The translations under genes were made by a program, and so were the position numbers. A stretch of 64,000 bases of DNA from Sacculina carcini (taxonomy: Eukaryota; Arthropoda; Thecostraca; Sacculinidae), in contig OU696583.1 of assembly GCA_916048095.2 (NCBI GenBank), positions 541,501 through 605,500 on the forward strand. Reading direction: 5' to 3'. This document shows positions 43,891-50,949 of the stretch, piece after piece. The notes under the pieces are model-generated. The model worked only from the letters and a program-made list of their open reading frames with translations, did not search any database and had not been told where the DNA came from. Numbering within the stretch: the first letter of the stretch is position 1; each line of letters opens with the position of its first letter.

Positions 43891-43895
43891 GGGTA

Positions 43896-44255
43896 TGTAA
43901 CGCCTGGCCAAACTTCGTCTTATTTTGTCTCGTCGTTTTTGTCTGGCAACGCAGCGCCTATATTTGGCAGCCTGTGCACGTGCCTTACTGCGTATTATGT
44001 GTATTGCCCCTGGAGTAGAGGTTTTGTGTCTGAGATTTTGTGCCTGAGAGTTGTACTTGTTTGCGCCACATTAAACCCAAGAGAGGCCAGAAAGTTTGAA
44101 CTGTAACGTACACGACGTTATTCAGACGAATCGGAAGCCATTAGTTTGATACCGCTATATTTTTCCGTGCACTCCGGTGTGGTGTAATGAATCGTAGCGT
44201 AGCGGTATCAAACTAATGGCTTCCGATTCGTCTGAATAACGTCGTGTACGTTACA
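43896..44255 (+). repeat. Left LTR of BEL/Pao element, with terminal hairpin
   Basis: Its 3' end is an inverted repeat: arms 44091-44157 and 44200-44266 (67 bp each, the last 11 bp lying beyond the LTR) around a 42-bp spacer 44158-44199. Confidence 0.92.
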
Positions 44256-44473
44256 GTTCAAACTTTGGCTGCTGTCGACTCGTCTTCGTACACTTTCTGG
44301 ACAGCTTCATCGGGAAGACATGAGTTGAATTTTTCGTTTTTTCATTTGAATTTGATTGAATTATGTTATGTATTTTGATTGTTATATTTTCTATCGGTGT
44401 GCCCAAGGCTAGCTTAGTCATATAACCACGCGCTACATCGTTTTTTGTGAATTGTTCCACTTTACGCTTAAGT

Positions 44474-47400
44474 ATGGCTGAACCAGATGAATCCAAGGGG
44501 TCAGATGAGGATCATTTGATTGAGATTAGGTCCCAAGTATGTGGGTCGGAATGTCCAAGTGTAGCCTCGAGTAATGCGCGTTTGGAGAGACTTGCGAAGA
44601 TCGCCAGAATAAGAACCGAAAGAGAATATAAACGTAGAGAGTATGAGAAATTGATTGAGATTCAGCGACAGAATATGGAACTAGAGGACTTGCGCTGTGA
44701 GAAAGAGATGCAGGCTACTATGGCTGAATTACAGGTGTTAGAGTCTGTCGAGGAGCCCAAGCCGGATATACCAATGAATATACCGCTAGGATCTCCGCAG
44801 TGTGATGGTTCCAGTAAAGTGTTAAAGCCGGAAATTGTTGGTGACATTCCCTTGAGATCCGGTGAGATACTGAAGCAAAGTTCTCCCTCTCCAAACAATG
44901 GTTCACGTGGGGATGCTGTAGCGAGCTCTCTTCACCGACTTGCTGATTTGCTTTCAGAACGACACAGTAGAGTGTCTCTTCCTCCTCCGGAGCCAGATGT
45001 ATTCCATGGAGACAGGCTTCAATTTCCGCTATGGTTGCGGTCATTTGAGTCTTGTGTTGAGTCACAGGTGAGTGGTGCTGATTGCCTGTATTATCTGCAG
45101 AAATATACAGAAGGAGAAGCAAAGGAAATTATCAGAGGGTTTTTAACCGTGAGGACTGGTGAGTCGTTCAGACGAGCGAAGGCACTCCTCGTAGAGAGAT
45201 ATGGTGATGAAGCGACCACATTTGATGCATTCAGGGAGAAACTGTACAAGTGGCCTGTTATTGATGAGCATGATGGTAGAGCTATAGCGAGGTTCTCTGA
45301 TTTTTTGCAGTATTGTCTCAGCTTGTCGGAAGCAGTTCCCGCGCTTGGCTATCTTGATGATCCGAGAGAAAGCCAGCGGCTGCTGAGAAAGCTGCCAGAC
45401 TCTATCGTGCAGAAGTGGGCATTAGAAGTGGACAGTTGGAGAGCCGGAAAACGGTCTTCAGTGTTTATGTATCCACCGTTTCAAGTTTTTTGTGAATTCA
45501 TTCAGAAAGAGGCACGCCTGGCATGTGACCCAATAACGTCGTTGCAAGCTGTAAAGAGGACACCGCAGGAACGGTCGGAAAGAAATAGACGAGGTCATGT
45601 GAGTCTGTTTACTCAAGCTGATGGTGAACATGAGTTATCGTTCAAATCAAGCGATTTATGTTGTGTCTGTTGCGGAAGTCATGAGACTATATCTTGTCCT
45701 GGTCTTCTGAAAATGAATGTTAAGGAACGGCAGCGTATTGTGATGGAAAAGAGACTGTGTTTTATATGTCTAAAAGGAGGACACGTTTTCAGTAAGTGCC
45801 CATCACAGTATAAATGCAGTGTGTGCAGTGGTCCGCATGCCCATATATTACATCAGGACAGCAGTGAGTTTAAGTGTCCTTGTTGTGACCAGCGACATTA
45901 CATTTTGCGTTGTCCACGCTTCAAGTCGCTGTCTATCAAGGAACGTTGGAATCTCGTGAAGTCGGAGGGTCTATGTGCCATCTGCTTTAAACGTGATCAT
46001 ATAGGCAGTAATTGCACGAGGAAATATTCTTGTACCGTTGACGGCTGTGGAAAGGCACATAGCAGTTTTCTACATTTACCTATGAATCGTGAAACTAATG
46101 TCAAATCCAGAACCAGTCATTTCACATGTAGTCAGGGTCAAAAACTGGCGCTGCTCATTGTCCCTGTGAGGGTCAGATGTCCCGGATCTGACAATCATGT
46201 TGATACTTATGCACTCCTTGACTCAGGTTCAAATTCATCTTACTGTACCGAAACCCTTTTCCAAGACGTTTGTGCCGAAGGAAAATCTCGTGCAATTGAG
46301 TTGACGACTATAACCCAGAGGAAGATGATAATTGAGTCGAAATCGACAAAGCTGGTTCTATCAGACGTGAAGGATACAAACTGTTCTCTCATTTCAGAGG
46401 TCACGGTGAGGCCGTCGTTGAATATTGATCTCTCAGGTTTAGCCTGCGATATCGAGGTTAACAAGTGGCGACATTTGAGTGATATTAGTATTCCGAAACT
46501 GGACGTTGGACAAGTACACCTTTTGATTGGTCAAGATTGTTCCGATCTGTTTATACCTACAGAAATTCGAAGAGGGAGGCCAGGTGAGCCGTATGCAATG
46601 AAGACTCCTCTCGGATGGGCCATCCATGGTCCTGTAGATGCTGGAATTACTATGAGATCATCGTATTTTGTTCATGGTGGGCATGTTTCGAACAACTTGG
46701 CTCGTATGTGGGATCTGGAAGATGCGCACTGCGAAACGACCGGAATGTCCCAGGACGACATGAAGGTGATGGAGTTGTGGAGCAAAAATATAGCATTGGA
46801 TGGTGTCCACTACACTTTGAATATTCCATTCAAGGCCGGCAACCTTTGTTTGCCAGATAATCGTACACTGGCAGTGACCCGCTTGCAGTCGCTAAAGAAG
46901 CGTCTGATCAAGGACCACACATTCAAAGATTGTTATTCCAAGGAAATACAGAAGCTAACTGAAAAGGGTTATGCCGAAGAAGTGCCAATTAGTGATTTGA
47001 ATCGATCAGACGGCAAGGTTTGGTACTTGCCTCATCATTCGGTGGTAAATCCTAGAAAACCGGGTAAGATGCGTGTCGTTTTTGATTGTGCGGCCAAGTA
47101 CAAGGGGGTGTCTCTGAATGACTGTGTACATCAGGGTCCTGAGTTGTCTAACAAGTTGATTGGTGTCTTATTGCGATTCCGACAAGGTCCGATCGCGTTC
47201 GTAGCTGATATTGAAGCAATGTTCCATCAAGTTAAAGTCAATTTGAAAGACCGAGATGTGTTGAGGTTTTTGTGGTTCGAAGGCGACGATACCAATGGAG
47301 AGTTGAAAGAATACCGGATGACGTCACACCTATTCGGAGGGAATTGGAGCCCTAGCTGTGCGGCCTACGCACTTCAAGAAGTAGCTCGCGAGTTTGTTAG

Positions 47401-49975
47401 TGAATATCCCCCCAGTGTACTAAGCACTATTTTGAGAAATTTCTATGTCGATGATTGCTTAAAGACAGAGAAGTCTGCATATGCGGCTGTTGAGGTGGCC
47501 AAGCAGCTCATGGAAATACTGTCGTTTCGAGGATTCAAGCTCACAAAGTTTGTCTCTAATTCTGCTGAATTTATGAAAGGTATACCAGAAGAGAGACGGG
47601 GAAGTTGTTATCAATCGCTTAATGTGAGTTTAGAGAAACTCTCGGTACAACGAGCCCTCGGTATGCTATGGGATGTCGAACTGGACGTTTTCAAATTTGA
47701 CGTTCAAATTCAAGAGAAGCCGTACACCAAAAGAGGACTACTTAGCACTTTGAGTACTGTATACGACCCTCTCGGATTTGTCAGTCCCTTTGTGCTGCCA
47801 GCAAGAAGGATGTTTCAGGAACTGTGTCGTCTGGATGTAGGTTGGGATAGCCAATTACCAGAGGACATAATGGAGCAATGGTTGAAGTGGACGAATGATT
47901 TTACTGTTGTTGCCTCCTACAGAGTGCCCAGGTGTGTTAATGCAAGTGATGAGCCTGCAGTAACTTACCAGCTTCACCACTTTTGTGACGCGTCAGAATA
48001 CGGTTACGGTGCCGTTTCGTATATACGTACCGAACATGATGCACACGTTTGTTCTGTCAGGCTGGTTTTGGCCAAGGCCAGGCTGGCACCAATAAAGGGT
48101 GCAACTATCCCGCGCCTAGAACTGGCTGGTGCAGTCGAGGCAGTCCGATTGGACAATTGTTTAAGATCAGAACTCGATGTTCCTCTTCGTGAATCTGTTT
48201 TCTGGACGGATAGCACCATTGTACTGTGGTATTTACAGAACAGCGAGAAACGTTTTCAGACATATGTGGCAAATCGAGTAGCCAAGATCTCGGAGAACAC
48301 GGTGCAAACTCAATGGAATTACGTCCCCAGTTGCGAGAATCCAGCAGATGATGCCTCTAGAGGACTCACAGCGACAGAGCTTTTAAATAACAGCAGGTGG
48401 TTAAATGGACCGTCATTTCTGCATTCAACGAGTGATAAGTGGCCGAGACAACCTGCACTGAAATGCGCAGAGCTGTCATGCATTGTGGAAACAAGAAGAG
48501 ATCCTGTTGTGTATGCAATCAAGACAGAAGAAGATCATACTGGCAAGTTATTAACCCATTTTTCTTCTTGGCACCGAATGAAAAGAGCTATAGCCTGGAT
48601 GCTAAGATTTCGAGCCTTTCTGCGTAAGAAACCTTTTAGTCATGGCTTTTTGTCAGTAGATGAACTAAAAAACTCCGAGAAATGGATTGTTATTTATGCC
48701 CAGAAGTCTTTGAATTCGGATGAAACAAGTATATTGGAGCGATTAGATCCGATGTTGTCAAATCGTGGAGTACTTGTTGTAGGAGGCAGGACTCAGGCCG
48801 CGAAGATCGAAGATCATGCGAAGCATCAGATAATCTTGCCTGGAGATCACCATGTGTCAAAATGCATACTATATGAAATACATAATCTATTTGGACATTG
48901 TGGCTCAGAGAGAACGCTTACAGAGAGCAGAAAACGATTCTGGATATTGAGAGGTCGTAGACTTGCAAAAAAGATAGTTTTTGAATGTGTCACTTGTAGA
49001 AGATTGAGGGGCAGTTTCAGGTATCAGAAGATGGCTAATCTTCCTGAATGTCGACTAACACCTTACGAAGCACCGTTTACGAGAGTTGGAATCGACTATT
49101 TTGGTCCCTTTGTGGTAAAAAGGGGGAGATCTGAAGTCAAACGATACGGATGTATATTTACTTGTATGGCTATCAGAGCAGTACATATAGAGGTTGCTCA
49201 TTCGCTAGATACTGATAGCTTCATCAACGCAGTAGAACGATTCACTGCAAGAAGAGGTGAACCCGTTGAGATTTGGTCCGATAATGGTACTAACTTTGTG
49301 GGTGGGCAACGGGAACTATCTCGAGCTGTGAAGTTATGGAACTTGGAAAAAATCCAGGATCACCTGTCGAAGAAAGAGATAACGTGGCATTTTAACCCAC
49401 CGGAAGCATCACATCATGGAGGCGTATGGGAGAGGCAGATTCGTACTGTACGGGCTGTACTAGATGGTATCGTTAAACAACAAAGGATGGACGATGAGAC
49501 TTTACTAACCGTGATGACGATGGCTGAAGGGATCGTGAATAGTAGACCTCTAACCAAGACTTCTGACGATCCTACGGACGACAGGCCGTTAACACCAAAT
49601 GACATATTGATTCAGCGGTCGGGACCAATTTTTCCTAAACTGAGTTTTGATCCAAAGAATGCATTTAGGCGTCGTTGGAAGCAATCACAATATCTTGCTG
49701 ACTTATTCTGGAGGCGATGGATTCGAGAGTACCTGCCGTGCTTGCAGGAACGGCAGAAGTGGAAAACCAAACAGCCGAATATGAAGACGGGTGATTTAGT
49801 ATTGTTACGACAAGAGGTGACTCCCAGAAATAGATGGCCTTTGGGGGTAGTCACAGAGGTTCATAAGGGTGGCGATCAGTTAGTTCGTTCTGTATCAATA
49901 AGAACGGGTACCGGAATTTATGTACGACCCATTACAAAGATATGTGTACTGGAAGCAAACGAGGCTGATTCTTGA
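44474..49975 (+). CDS. BEL/Pao gag-pol polyprotein
   Basis: About 1833 codons from MAEPDESKG. A coiled-coil-rich gag half with the conserved BEL/Pao region (PEPDVFHGDRLQFPLWLRSF), then Cys-rich knuckles (CFICLKGGHVFSKC, CAICFKRDHIGSNC), protease (LLDSGSNSSYC), reverse transcriptase (VFDCAAKYKGVSLND, FYVDDCL), RNase H (FCDASEYGYGAVSY), integrase (HH-CC region, GIDYFGPF, WSDNGTNF, core Glu in GGVWERQIR). Domain order and motifs fit BEL/Pao. No envelope frame follows. Confidence 0.92.
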   Translation: MAEPDESKGSDEDHLIEIRSQVCGSECPSVASSNARLERLAKIARIRTEREYKRREYEKLIEIQRQNMELEDLRCEKEMQATMAELQVLESVEEPKPDIPMNIPLGSPQCDGSSKVLKPEIVGDIPLRSGEILKQSSPSPNNGSRGDAVASSLHRLADLLSERHSRVSLPPPEPDVFHGDRLQFPLWLRSFESCVESQVSGADCLYYLQKYTEGEAKEIIRGFLTVRTGESFRRAKALLVERYGDEATTFDAFREKLYKWPVIDEHDGRAIARFSDFLQYCLSLSEAVPALGYLDDPRESQRLLRKLPDSIVQKWALEVDSWRAGKRSSVFMYPPFQVFCEFIQKEARLACDPITSLQAVKRTPQERSERNRRGHVSLFTQADGEHELSFKSSDLCCVCCGSHETISCPGLLKMNVKERQRIVMEKRLCFICLKGGHVFSKCPSQYKCSVCSGPHAHILHQDSSEFKCPCCDQRHYILRCPRFKSLSIKERWNLVKSEGLCAICFKRDHIGSNCTRKYSCTVDGCGKAHSSFLHLPMNRETNVKSRTSHFTCSQGQKLALLIVPVRVRCPGSDNHVDTYALLDSGSNSSYCTETLFQDVCAEGKSRAIELTTITQRKMIIESKSTKLVLSDVKDTNCSLISEVTVRPSLNIDLSGLACDIEVNKWRHLSDISIPKLDVGQVHLLIGQDCSDLFIPTEIRRGRPGEPYAMKTPLGWAIHGPVDAGITMRSSYFVHGGHVSNNLARMWDLEDAHCETTGMSQDDMKVMELWSKNIALDGVHYTLNIPFKAGNLCLPDNRTLAVTRLQSLKKRLIKDHTFKDCYSKEIQKLTEKGYAEEVPISDLNRSDGKVWYLPHHSVVNPRKPGKMRVVFDCAAKYKGVSLNDCVHQGPELSNKLIGVLLRFRQGPIAFVADIEAMFHQVKVNLKDRDVLRFLWFEGDDTNGELKEYRMTSHLFGGNWSPSCAAYALQEVAREFVSEYPPSVLSTILRNFYVDDCLKTEKSAYAAVEVAKQLMEILSFRGFKLTKFVSNSAEFMKGIPEERRGSCYQSLNVSLEKLSVQRALGMLWDVELDVFKFDVQIQEKPYTKRGLLSTLSTVYDPLGFVSPFVLPARRMFQELCRLDVGWDSQLPEDIMEQWLKWTNDFTVVASYRVPRCVNASDEPAVTYQLHHFCDASEYGYGAVSYIRTEHDAHVCSVRLVLAKARLAPIKGATIPRLELAGAVEAVRLDNCLRSELDVPLRESVFWTDSTIVLWYLQNSEKRFQTYVANRVAKISENTVQTQWNYVPSCENPADDASRGLTATELLNNSRWLNGPSFLHSTSDKWPRQPALKCAELSCIVETRRDPVVYAIKTEEDHTGKLLTHFSSWHRMKRAIAWMLRFRAFLRKKPFSHGFLSVDELKNSEKWIVIYAQKSLNSDETSILERLDPMLSNRGVLVVGGRTQAAKIEDHAKHQIILPGDHHVSKCILYEIHNLFGHCGSERTLTESRKRFWILRGRRLAKKIVFECVTCRRLRGSFRYQKMANLPECRLTPYEAPFTRVGIDYFGPFVVKRGRSEVKRYGCIFTCMAIRAVHIEVAHSLDTDSFINAVERFTARRGEPVEIWSDNGTNFVGGQRELSRAVKLWNLEKIQDHLSKKEITWHFNPPEASHHGGVWERQIRTVRAVLDGIVKQQRMDDETLLTVMTMAEGIVNSRPLTKTSDDPTDDRPLTPNDILIQRSGPIFPKLSFDPKNAFRRRWKQSQYLADLFWRRWIREYLPCLQERQKWKTKQPNMKTGDLVLLRQEVTPRNRWPLGVVTEVHKGGDQLVRSVSIRTGTGIYVRPITKICVLEANEADS

Positions 49976-50324
49976 TTGTCATTGTTTTTTTTTACATGTT
50001 TGTGAAGCTACTGTTGTATTCAGTTGCTTGTTGGCGTTTAGTTGTTTAAACGTGTGTTGCGCTGTTGATATCTTATCACAATCGCGATCAGTGACCACGC
50101 CCGAGTGGACTCCGATCTTTTGTATTGCGTTGCTTATTTACATGGTATTAAACTTACGGTGGACACTGGTAGTGTTTTTTGTGATGTATTGTCAGTTCAC
50201 CCGTGTTGTATTGAGTCAGAGACGACACTGATGGAGGTTTCGGTTCTCATTATTTCTCATTTATATGTTGGGTTTAGCGTTGTCCTGGCGTTGTGTTTGA
50301 GTGCAAGTGTTGCACTGGGGCCGG

Positions 50325-50684
50325 TGTAACGCCTGGCCAAACTTCGTCTTATTTTGTCTCGTCGTTTTTGTCTGGCAACGCAGCGCCTATATTTGGCAGC
50401 CTGTGCACGTGCCTTACTGCGTATTATGTGTATTGCCCCTGGAGTAGAGGTTTTGTGTCTGAGATTTTGTGCCTGAGAGTTGTACTTGTTTGCGCCACAT
50501 TAAACCCAAGAGAGGCCAGAAAGTTTGAACTGTAACGTACACGACGTTATTCAGACGAATCGGAAGCCATTAGTTTGATACCGCTACGCTACGATTCATT
50601 ACACCACACCGGAGTGCACGGAAAAATATAGCGGTATCAAACTAATGGCTTCCGATTCGTCTGAATAACGTCGTGTACGTTACA
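50325..50684 (+). repeat. Right LTR of BEL/Pao element, with terminal hairpin
   Basis: Same as the left LTR except that the 42-bp spacer (50587-50628) is the exact reverse complement of the left spacer. Confidence 0.92.
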
Positions 50685-50949
50685 GGGTATATATAACCCC
50701 CAGGATCTTCGCCCTTGACTTGAGTCAATGTTCGGCTGGCGTCTGTGTGGTTTGGCTCTGATTTGCCTGCGCAATATACGCGCCACTTTTGTGAGTGTTC
50801 GTGCAGTTGACAAGTTTCTTTTGGCAGCAATTAGGTGGGCGAGTGATGGCTGAAAGAAACTGGCGATAAGTCATTTTTATTAGCAGATTGATTGCATTCA
50901 TGTTGATCTGAATGCAGTTCTCTGAATTATTCGCCGCGCGCTGGGGTGT

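Follow-up and report, generated by a model that had tools for sequence, protein, structure and literature searches.

The question raised by this locus is how the two long terminal repeats (LTRs) of one retrotransposon can be the same throughout except for a stretch that is turned around in one of them. The window, a stretch of 64,000 nucleotides of the Sacculina carcini genome (contig OU696583.1, positions 541,501–605,500), contains a BEL/Pao retrotransposon in which both LTRs end in a long hairpin, and the 42-bp spacer of this hairpin is flipped between the two. Comparison of the window element with other copies of its own family (F1) and with related families in the same genome suggests an answer that we consider probable: the element would prime reverse transcription with a short piece of its own RNA that is assembled by splicing, and the hairpin would have arisen when DNA made from this primer snapped back on itself. 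The parts of the element are as follows, with positions counted within the window.

43891..43895, no strand: left copy of the target site duplication (TSD), GGGTA
43896..44255, + strand: 5' LTR, 360 bp, in the spliced (intron-less) palindromic form with the flipped spacer
44091..44101, + strand: spliced exon junction AAAGT/TTGAAC, the putative self-primer
Between 44095 and 44096: place of the intron in intron-bearing copies (e.g. L012), given by the matching bases
44091..44157, + strand: left arm of the 5' LTR hairpin, probably the primer site and the end of U5 (the unique 5' region) copied in reverse
44158..44199, - strand: 42-bp spacer, in the opposite orientation to that of other copies
44200..44266, + strand: right arm of the 5' LTR hairpin, consisting of the U5 end and the primer binding site
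44256..44266, + strand: putative primer binding site GTTCAAACTTT, directly 3' of the 5' LTR
44447..49975, + strand: gag-pol reading frame of 1842 codons
Domain matches in gag-pol: DUF1759 at about 45002–45310, Pao peptidase A17 at about 47726–48037 and on, DUF5641 at about 49670–49951
50325..50684, + strand: 3' LTR, 360 bp, with the spacer in native orientation
50520..50530, + strand: spliced junction AAAGTTTGAAC of the 3' LTR
50530..50586, + strand: left arm of the 3' LTR hairpin
50587..50628, + strand: 42-bp spacer of the 3' LTR in native orientation
50629..50685, + strand: right arm of the 3' LTR hairpin, its last base being the first base of the TSD
50685..50689, no strand: right copy of the TSD, GGGTA

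The hairpins themselves had been described in the initial annotation, and direct comparison agrees with that description. The 42-nt spacers at 44158–44199 and 50587–50628 are exact reverse complements, and from the primer onward the left LTR is the right LTR with its spacer reversed. The left arms (44091–44157 and 44200–44266) are 67 nt long and 100% complementary; the right arms (50530–50586 and 50629–50685) are 57 nt long and also 100% complementary. A perfect arm of 67 nt together with an exact inversion of 42 nt is far above chance. The left palindrome had also been seen to run on for 11 bases beyond the LTR, and these bases, 44256–44266, are the putative primer site.

The window element is a BEL/Pao LTR retrotransposon, with Pao-type pol domains, an LTR pair and a short TSD. 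Pieces of gag-pol matched Peptidase_A17 (3.5e-30 and 3.4e-11), DUF5641 (1.8e-33) and DUF1759 (2.8e-09); matches to RVT_1 and rve were below the cut-off. A twin with the same flip lies on this contig as well, 60,781 bp downstream (C18:646177-652965). Two compared stretches of 3360 bp, flanks of 1.5 kb included, differed between the window element and the twin by 0 and 1 bases. Element and flanks are thus doubled, by a recent segmental duplication or as an assembly duplicate, and the near-identity of the two copies means that the flip is a single event seen twice.

In the same genome 38 further F1 LTR loci were read, the twin's two included. Spacer orientation, which the initial annotation had proposed to score, was native in 36 of these; one (the left LTR of the twin) is flipped, and one (C25) has no spacer. 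The right LTR of the window element therefore keeps the ancestral orientation. An orientation switch had been suggested, and with the flip confined to one event in the window element and its twin, a regulated switch was rejected as the explanation of the locus.

The same 38 loci differ in a second feature. A GT-AG intron-like insert is present in 33 and absent from five (the twin's two, two of a C6 element and C25). The insert, GTAAGT...CTCAG, lies between AAAGT and TTGAAC and is 163 bp long where measured. An intron-bearing LTR reads GAGGCCAGAAAGT, then GTAAGT... to an intron end that is TTTTTATGCTCAG in most copies, then TTGAAC (TTGAGC in L044), followed by a (CGCTA)n tandem repeat, the spacer, the right-arm sequence and the LTR end GTTACA. 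None of the 33 contains the palindrome. These ordinary LTRs hold the arm sequence as their own U5 end, so the hairpin arms are not foreign. Genome-wide, the exon-intron border occurs in 39 exact copies and three with one mismatch. The intron-less junction, CCAGAAAGTTTGAAC, was found in seven LTRs – two each in the window element, the twin and the C6 element, and the C25 solo LTR (TSD CTATC) – which represent three insertions plus the twin.

The spliced junction AAAGT/TTGAAC is the exact reverse complement, over 11 nt, of GTTCAAACTTT, which lies directly behind the 5' LTR. Without splicing, complementarity to the LTR is 6 nt in F1 and 6–8 nt over the families compared, and the site of one family matches the LTRs of other families over at most 9 nt. 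These families came from a genome search for reverse transcriptases (RTs), in which 150 of 333 candidates were scored. Nine families or groups were tried (F1, F2, F3, F4, F5, F6, F7, F10 and a 57% group): five fit, among them three for which spliced copies exist; in one the site is of the TGG type; and in three no LTR pair could be read.

In F2 (RT about 55% identical), the LTR of a C16 element contains a 212-bp intron, GTAAGT...TTCCAG, and the LTR of a C21 element is the same but for the precise absence of these 212 bp. The bases that follow the LTR immediately, GTCCAAAACTT, are complementary to the junction AAGTT/TTGGAC. With up to one mismatch, the spliced form of F2 was found in two C21 LTRs only. 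A search over possible joins reached its optimum of 12 nt with another donor; the spliced copy in the genome uses the GTAAGT donor, with 11 nt. In F3 (RT about 38%), an intron GTGAGC...TTTTCAG is present in copies on C6, C11 and C2 (the C2 copy has a one-base change in the junction exon), and a C7 copy lacks it in both LTRs. The F3 junction, TGTGAG/AAAAAC, is complementary over 12 nt to GTTTTTCTCACA, 5 nt behind the LTR. For two more families the join is predicted: in F5 (RT about 40%), a GT-AG join ATGAG/GTTTAC would match GTAAACCTCAT over 11 nt (donor GTTAGT, intron of 168), and in F7 (RT about 34%), CGC/GTTTAAA would match TTTAAACGCG over 10 nt (donor GTGAGT, intron of 148). A putative primer in two halves recurs in other families, with letters that are different yet complementary.

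The chance of such matches was estimated with 3000 shuffles per family of the 17 bases behind the LTR, scored over any GT-AG join. The observed complementarity was reached by 6 shuffles in F1, none in F2, 5 in F3, 9 in F5 and 35 in F7. At decoy positions in the leader (116 for F1, 120 for each other family), the maximum was 7 nt for F1, 6 for F2, 7 for F3 and 7 for F5. Genomic copies define the junction in F1 to F3, which makes a chance match far less probable still, by our estimate about 4^-11 per placement.

We infer from these comparisons that the BEL/Pao element primes reverse transcription with its own RNA, in the manner of Tf1, with splicing assembling the primer. The 5' part of the spliced RNA would fold back onto the primer site behind the 5' LTR, RNase H would cut behind the 11-mer as it does in Tf1, and the 11-mer would prime minus strong-stop DNA. 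Since the halves of the primer lie on both sides of the LTR intron, only RNA processed by the spliceosome could start copying. The strong-stop DNA would end at the (CGCTA)n behind the cut, and the same repeat lies in the 3' LTR just downstream of the unspliced intron; a first transfer landing there would restore the intron. What the sequences show are introns in LTRs, their exact loss in some copies, complementarity that is kept while the letters change, and a snap-back product that agrees letter for letter; splicing in cells, use of the 11-mer as primer, the position of the cut, the return of the intron at the first transfer and the way in which the spacer was flipped are inferred. Even in its broad form – a wide set of BEL/Pao elements that make reverse transcription conditional on splicing and restore the intron in each round – we think the proposal has a good chance of being right.

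The part given to (CGCTA)n in the first transfer is suggested by its position and number variation. Among the 15 LTR pairs in which the repeat could be counted, 5 have different numbers on the left and on the right, which is compatible with slippage at the transfer point. Behind the putative primer cut, between 1 and 18 copies of the repeat are present where they were counted (e.g. L009, L010, L022, L023 and L061).

An origin of the palindrome by snap-back of self-primed strong-stop DNA is well supported by the sequence it predicts. The prediction starts from an ordinary F1 LTR (C37), in which the CGCTA repeat stands twice. With AAAGTTTGAAC as primer, the minus strong-stop DNA would copy U5 up to the cut behind the 11-mer and would end in CGTAGCGTAGCG. 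Its last five bases, TAGCG, have one internal partner, CGCTA. In the ancestor of the window element, the 3' end of this DNA would have annealed to its own CGCTA and copied back through the RNA primer. The predicted product equals the right LTR of the window element from the primer on, at 165 of 165 bases, and the left LTR is this product with the spacer reversed. A spliced junction is expected in the palindromic LTR because R (the terminally repeated region of the RNA) would be copied from the primer RNA. Eight 5-nt snap-back placements are possible in the C37-based strong-stop DNA. In our interpretation, the breakpoint of the palindrome falls within about one base of the predicted RNase H cut. 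A second snap-back, at AACGT/ACGTT, predicts the C25 solo LTR exactly. Of the ideas offered in the initial annotation, a template jump from arm to arm in reverse transcription and RNA pairing across the border between LTR and primer site both pointed in the right direction, given this explanation of the palindrome. For the inversion of the left spacer there are two possible routes.

The palindrome gives the minus strand a second copy of the primer site, at the border of arm and R, so annealing to the wrong copy is possible at the second strand transfer. The 3' end of the minus strand (AAAGTTTGAAC) would anneal there and not on the plus strong-stop DNA, and would copy arm, spacer and arm in inverted order. 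Synthesis would then return by way of the identical arm and give a left LTR with a flipped spacer within the same round. We give this misannealing an even chance of having produced the flip. The other possibility is that reverse transcription made the palindrome and the spacer was inverted after insertion, by recombination between the arms or cruciform rejoining, before the 60.8-kb duplication. Recombination between the arms after insertion had been proposed for the locus as a whole; it may have made the flip, but it does not account for the origin of the palindrome. Arms of 67 identical nucleotides around a spacer of only 42 nt, in LTRs that are otherwise the same, are favourable to it, and one event would cover the window element and its twin. 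To our knowledge, inversion between inverted repeats so close together is not known to be frequent, and the second transfer could invert the spacer without a further event after insertion, so a flip after insertion is a tentative alternative, to which we give somewhat less than an even chance. An assembly error could also flip a spacer, since long perfect hairpins are hard to assemble. The same arrangement is present at two places in the assembly, though both may go back to one source, and we regard such an error as quite improbable.

For priming itself, the alternative is that a host transfer RNA (tRNA) anneals at a TGG 10 nt behind the LTR and that the 11-nt complementarity is a coincidence or has another use. 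The profile of Belpaoviridae by the International Committee on Taxonomy of Viruses (ICTV) gives priming by a host tRNA, either tRNA-Arg or tRNA-Gly, at a complementary site of 18 nt (PMC8742986), and a CCA-ended copy of tRNA-Asp lies inside the C6 element. A TGGCT is present 10 nt behind the LTR in both F1 and F2 (44266–44270 in the window), resembling the start of a tRNA site. In a test of F1 for an 18-nt tRNA site, there was no TGG at the LTR edge, TGGCT stood at +10, and the tRNA-Asp copy, the sole tRNA compared, matched over 5 nt; across F1 and F2, its end matches the TGGCT stretches over 5–6 nt. In F3 and F5 the 25 nt that follow the LTR contain no TGG, and in F7 the first TGG is 18 nt behind the LTR. 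Against a coincidence stands complementarity of 10–12 nt across the splice junction in five families with different letters. Priming by a tRNA at this site thus appears improbable. Chance deletions occur in LTRs and might produce intron-less copies without splicing, but in three families the missing stretch runs precisely from GT to AG, and in four elements (the window element and those on C6, C21 and C7, leaving out the twin) both LTRs are without it; we consider chance deletion very improbable. The perfect inverted repeats and short spacer had also led to the suggestion of a captured miniature inverted-repeat transposable element (MITE). The arms consist of U5-end and primer-site sequence that belongs to the family itself, with the U5 end copied backwards; the spacer is ordinary LTR sequence; and among the matches listed in the genome searches there was no solitary palindrome. 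This suggestion falls away almost completely.

Several results weigh against a splice-built self-primer or limit its reach. Splicing is deduced from genomic copies, and primer use is presumed; the model gives no reason why the intron of the 3' LTR escapes splicing; and the TGGCT in F1 and F2 suits a tRNA site. A pattern search allowing one mismatch found no spliced copies of F5. For F7 there were only three matches, all with 2 mismatches and none confirmed, yet its unspliced exon-intron border has 40 matches. Nine of the 120 decoy positions of F7, which overlap in one stretch, reach at least 10 nt and up to 11, against 10 for its own site, and by itself F7 is therefore weak evidence. A site of the TGG type, like that of tRNA-primed elements, was judged by eye to be present in F6, for which no LTR pair was found; not every BEL/Pao family in this genome uses the design. 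No LTR pair was obtained for F4 (C4), for F10 (C11) or, in the 57% group, for the copies on C9 and C4. The C25 LTR could be a deletion derivative of the palindrome by way of a short repeat, with the same letters. Folding of natural spliced RNA copies gave pairing of the primer site of 0.99–1.0 in F1, 0.54–0.57 in F3 and 0 in F2. The folded F1 copy has extra complementarity gained from the copied primer, and the folded F2 copy has a changed base in the site; the results were mixed, and folding was not taken as support for primer pairing.

Several copies carry further traces that fit the model. In a C2 element, GTTCAAACTTT stands behind the 5' LTR, and after it come a further 19 bases of R as their reverse complement, up to TAAACCC; this copied stretch meets pol at a short sequence that the two share. 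The trace looks as if plus strong-stop DNA had copied a self-primer that was left uncut. The 5' LTR of the C6 element has GTTCAAACTTTCTGG at the same place, then the tRNA-Asp copy with CCA, then a fragment of pol. In rearranged copies on C16, C1 and C6, element sequence starts no more than 3 bases from the edge between LTR and primer site, which is where minus-strand synthesis would end.

Among the closest known systems is Tf1, whose RNA pairs with the primer site through its first 11 bases and is cut by RNase H between base 11 and base 12 (PMC7175516). The window element is like the Tf1/sushi elements of Schizosaccharomyces and relatives, which belong to Ty3/gypsy, in its putative 11-nt primer from its own RNA and in a site at the 5' LTR. 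It is unlike Tf1 in being a BEL/Pao element and in having an 11-mer that is split by an intron and complete only after splicing. The primer of Tf1 is the extreme 5' end of the RNA, whereas a place of the 11-mer within R is only presumed here. With a Pao-type and not a Ty3/gypsy pol, the resemblance is one of mechanism and not of lineage.

The terminal hairpins of adeno-associated virus (AAV), known as flip and flop, are self-primed, and their inner part inverts as a regular step of replication. The likeness to AAV lies in a self-primed hairpin with an inverting inner part; the flip here was a single event. An intron inside a terminal repeat is known from Penelope. Penelope-like elements share introns that survive retrotransposition and a proposed self-priming, and they differ in enzyme and mode of integration; the available part of PMC3846280 describes no splice-built primer.

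Described BEL/Pao elements are like the window element in having the Pao peptidase A17, DUF1759 and DUF5641, and its LTR of 360 bp is inside the ICTV range of 0.2–1.2 kb (PMC8742986). They differ in the tRNA priming that the profile describes, and the profile mentions no LTR intron. The same profile lists vertebrates, insects and nematodes as hosts and calls BEL/Pao replication poorly understood. No report of a splice-built self-primer appeared among the matches listed in searches of open-access literature (subscription journals were mostly outside the search), and PMC3118150 does not contain the terms primer binding site, PBS, tRNA, intron, splicing or self-priming. The design is apparently unreported. 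If it is real, a primer assembled by splicing would be a new way of licensing reverse transcription, and it would explain how an LTR can carry an intron and retain it through an RNA stage and why annotation based on tRNAs would miss the primer sites of these families. From the design follows a sequence rule that can be applied to any genome with BEL/Pao elements: about 11 nt behind the LTR should be complementary to a GT-AG junction within that LTR.

A few further observations were made in these families. The TGGCT at 10 nt in the F1 and F2 leaders could be the remnant of a tRNA primer site. The tRNA-Asp copy of the C6 element is at 1189–1262 of L102, between the copied primer and the pol fragment, and the CCA behind it means that it perhaps came from a mature tRNA. 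CCA-bearing tRNA copies also adjoin the 5' LTR of a Culex Osvaldo-like element (available part of PMC3286476). L081 (C2:10533431) is an old diverged copy that is intron-less at the usual place. Its changed site, GTACAAACTTT, has no compensating change in the LTR (CATACAATTTGAAC); the copy also carries another insert and is uninformative on this point. Further upstream, its LTR has about 100 bp of extra sequence bounded by GT...AG, perhaps an intron at another position.

A region of C16 (C16:8237820-8274072, L095-L099 and L106) contains five copies of the leader spaced exactly 6718 bp apart, plus a sixth. The reading frame of another gene in this array had no Pfam match above the cut-off. In the array, F1 internal sequence meets an inverted repeat of this gene at the edge of the primer site; the start of the gene has been copied both forwards and backwards.

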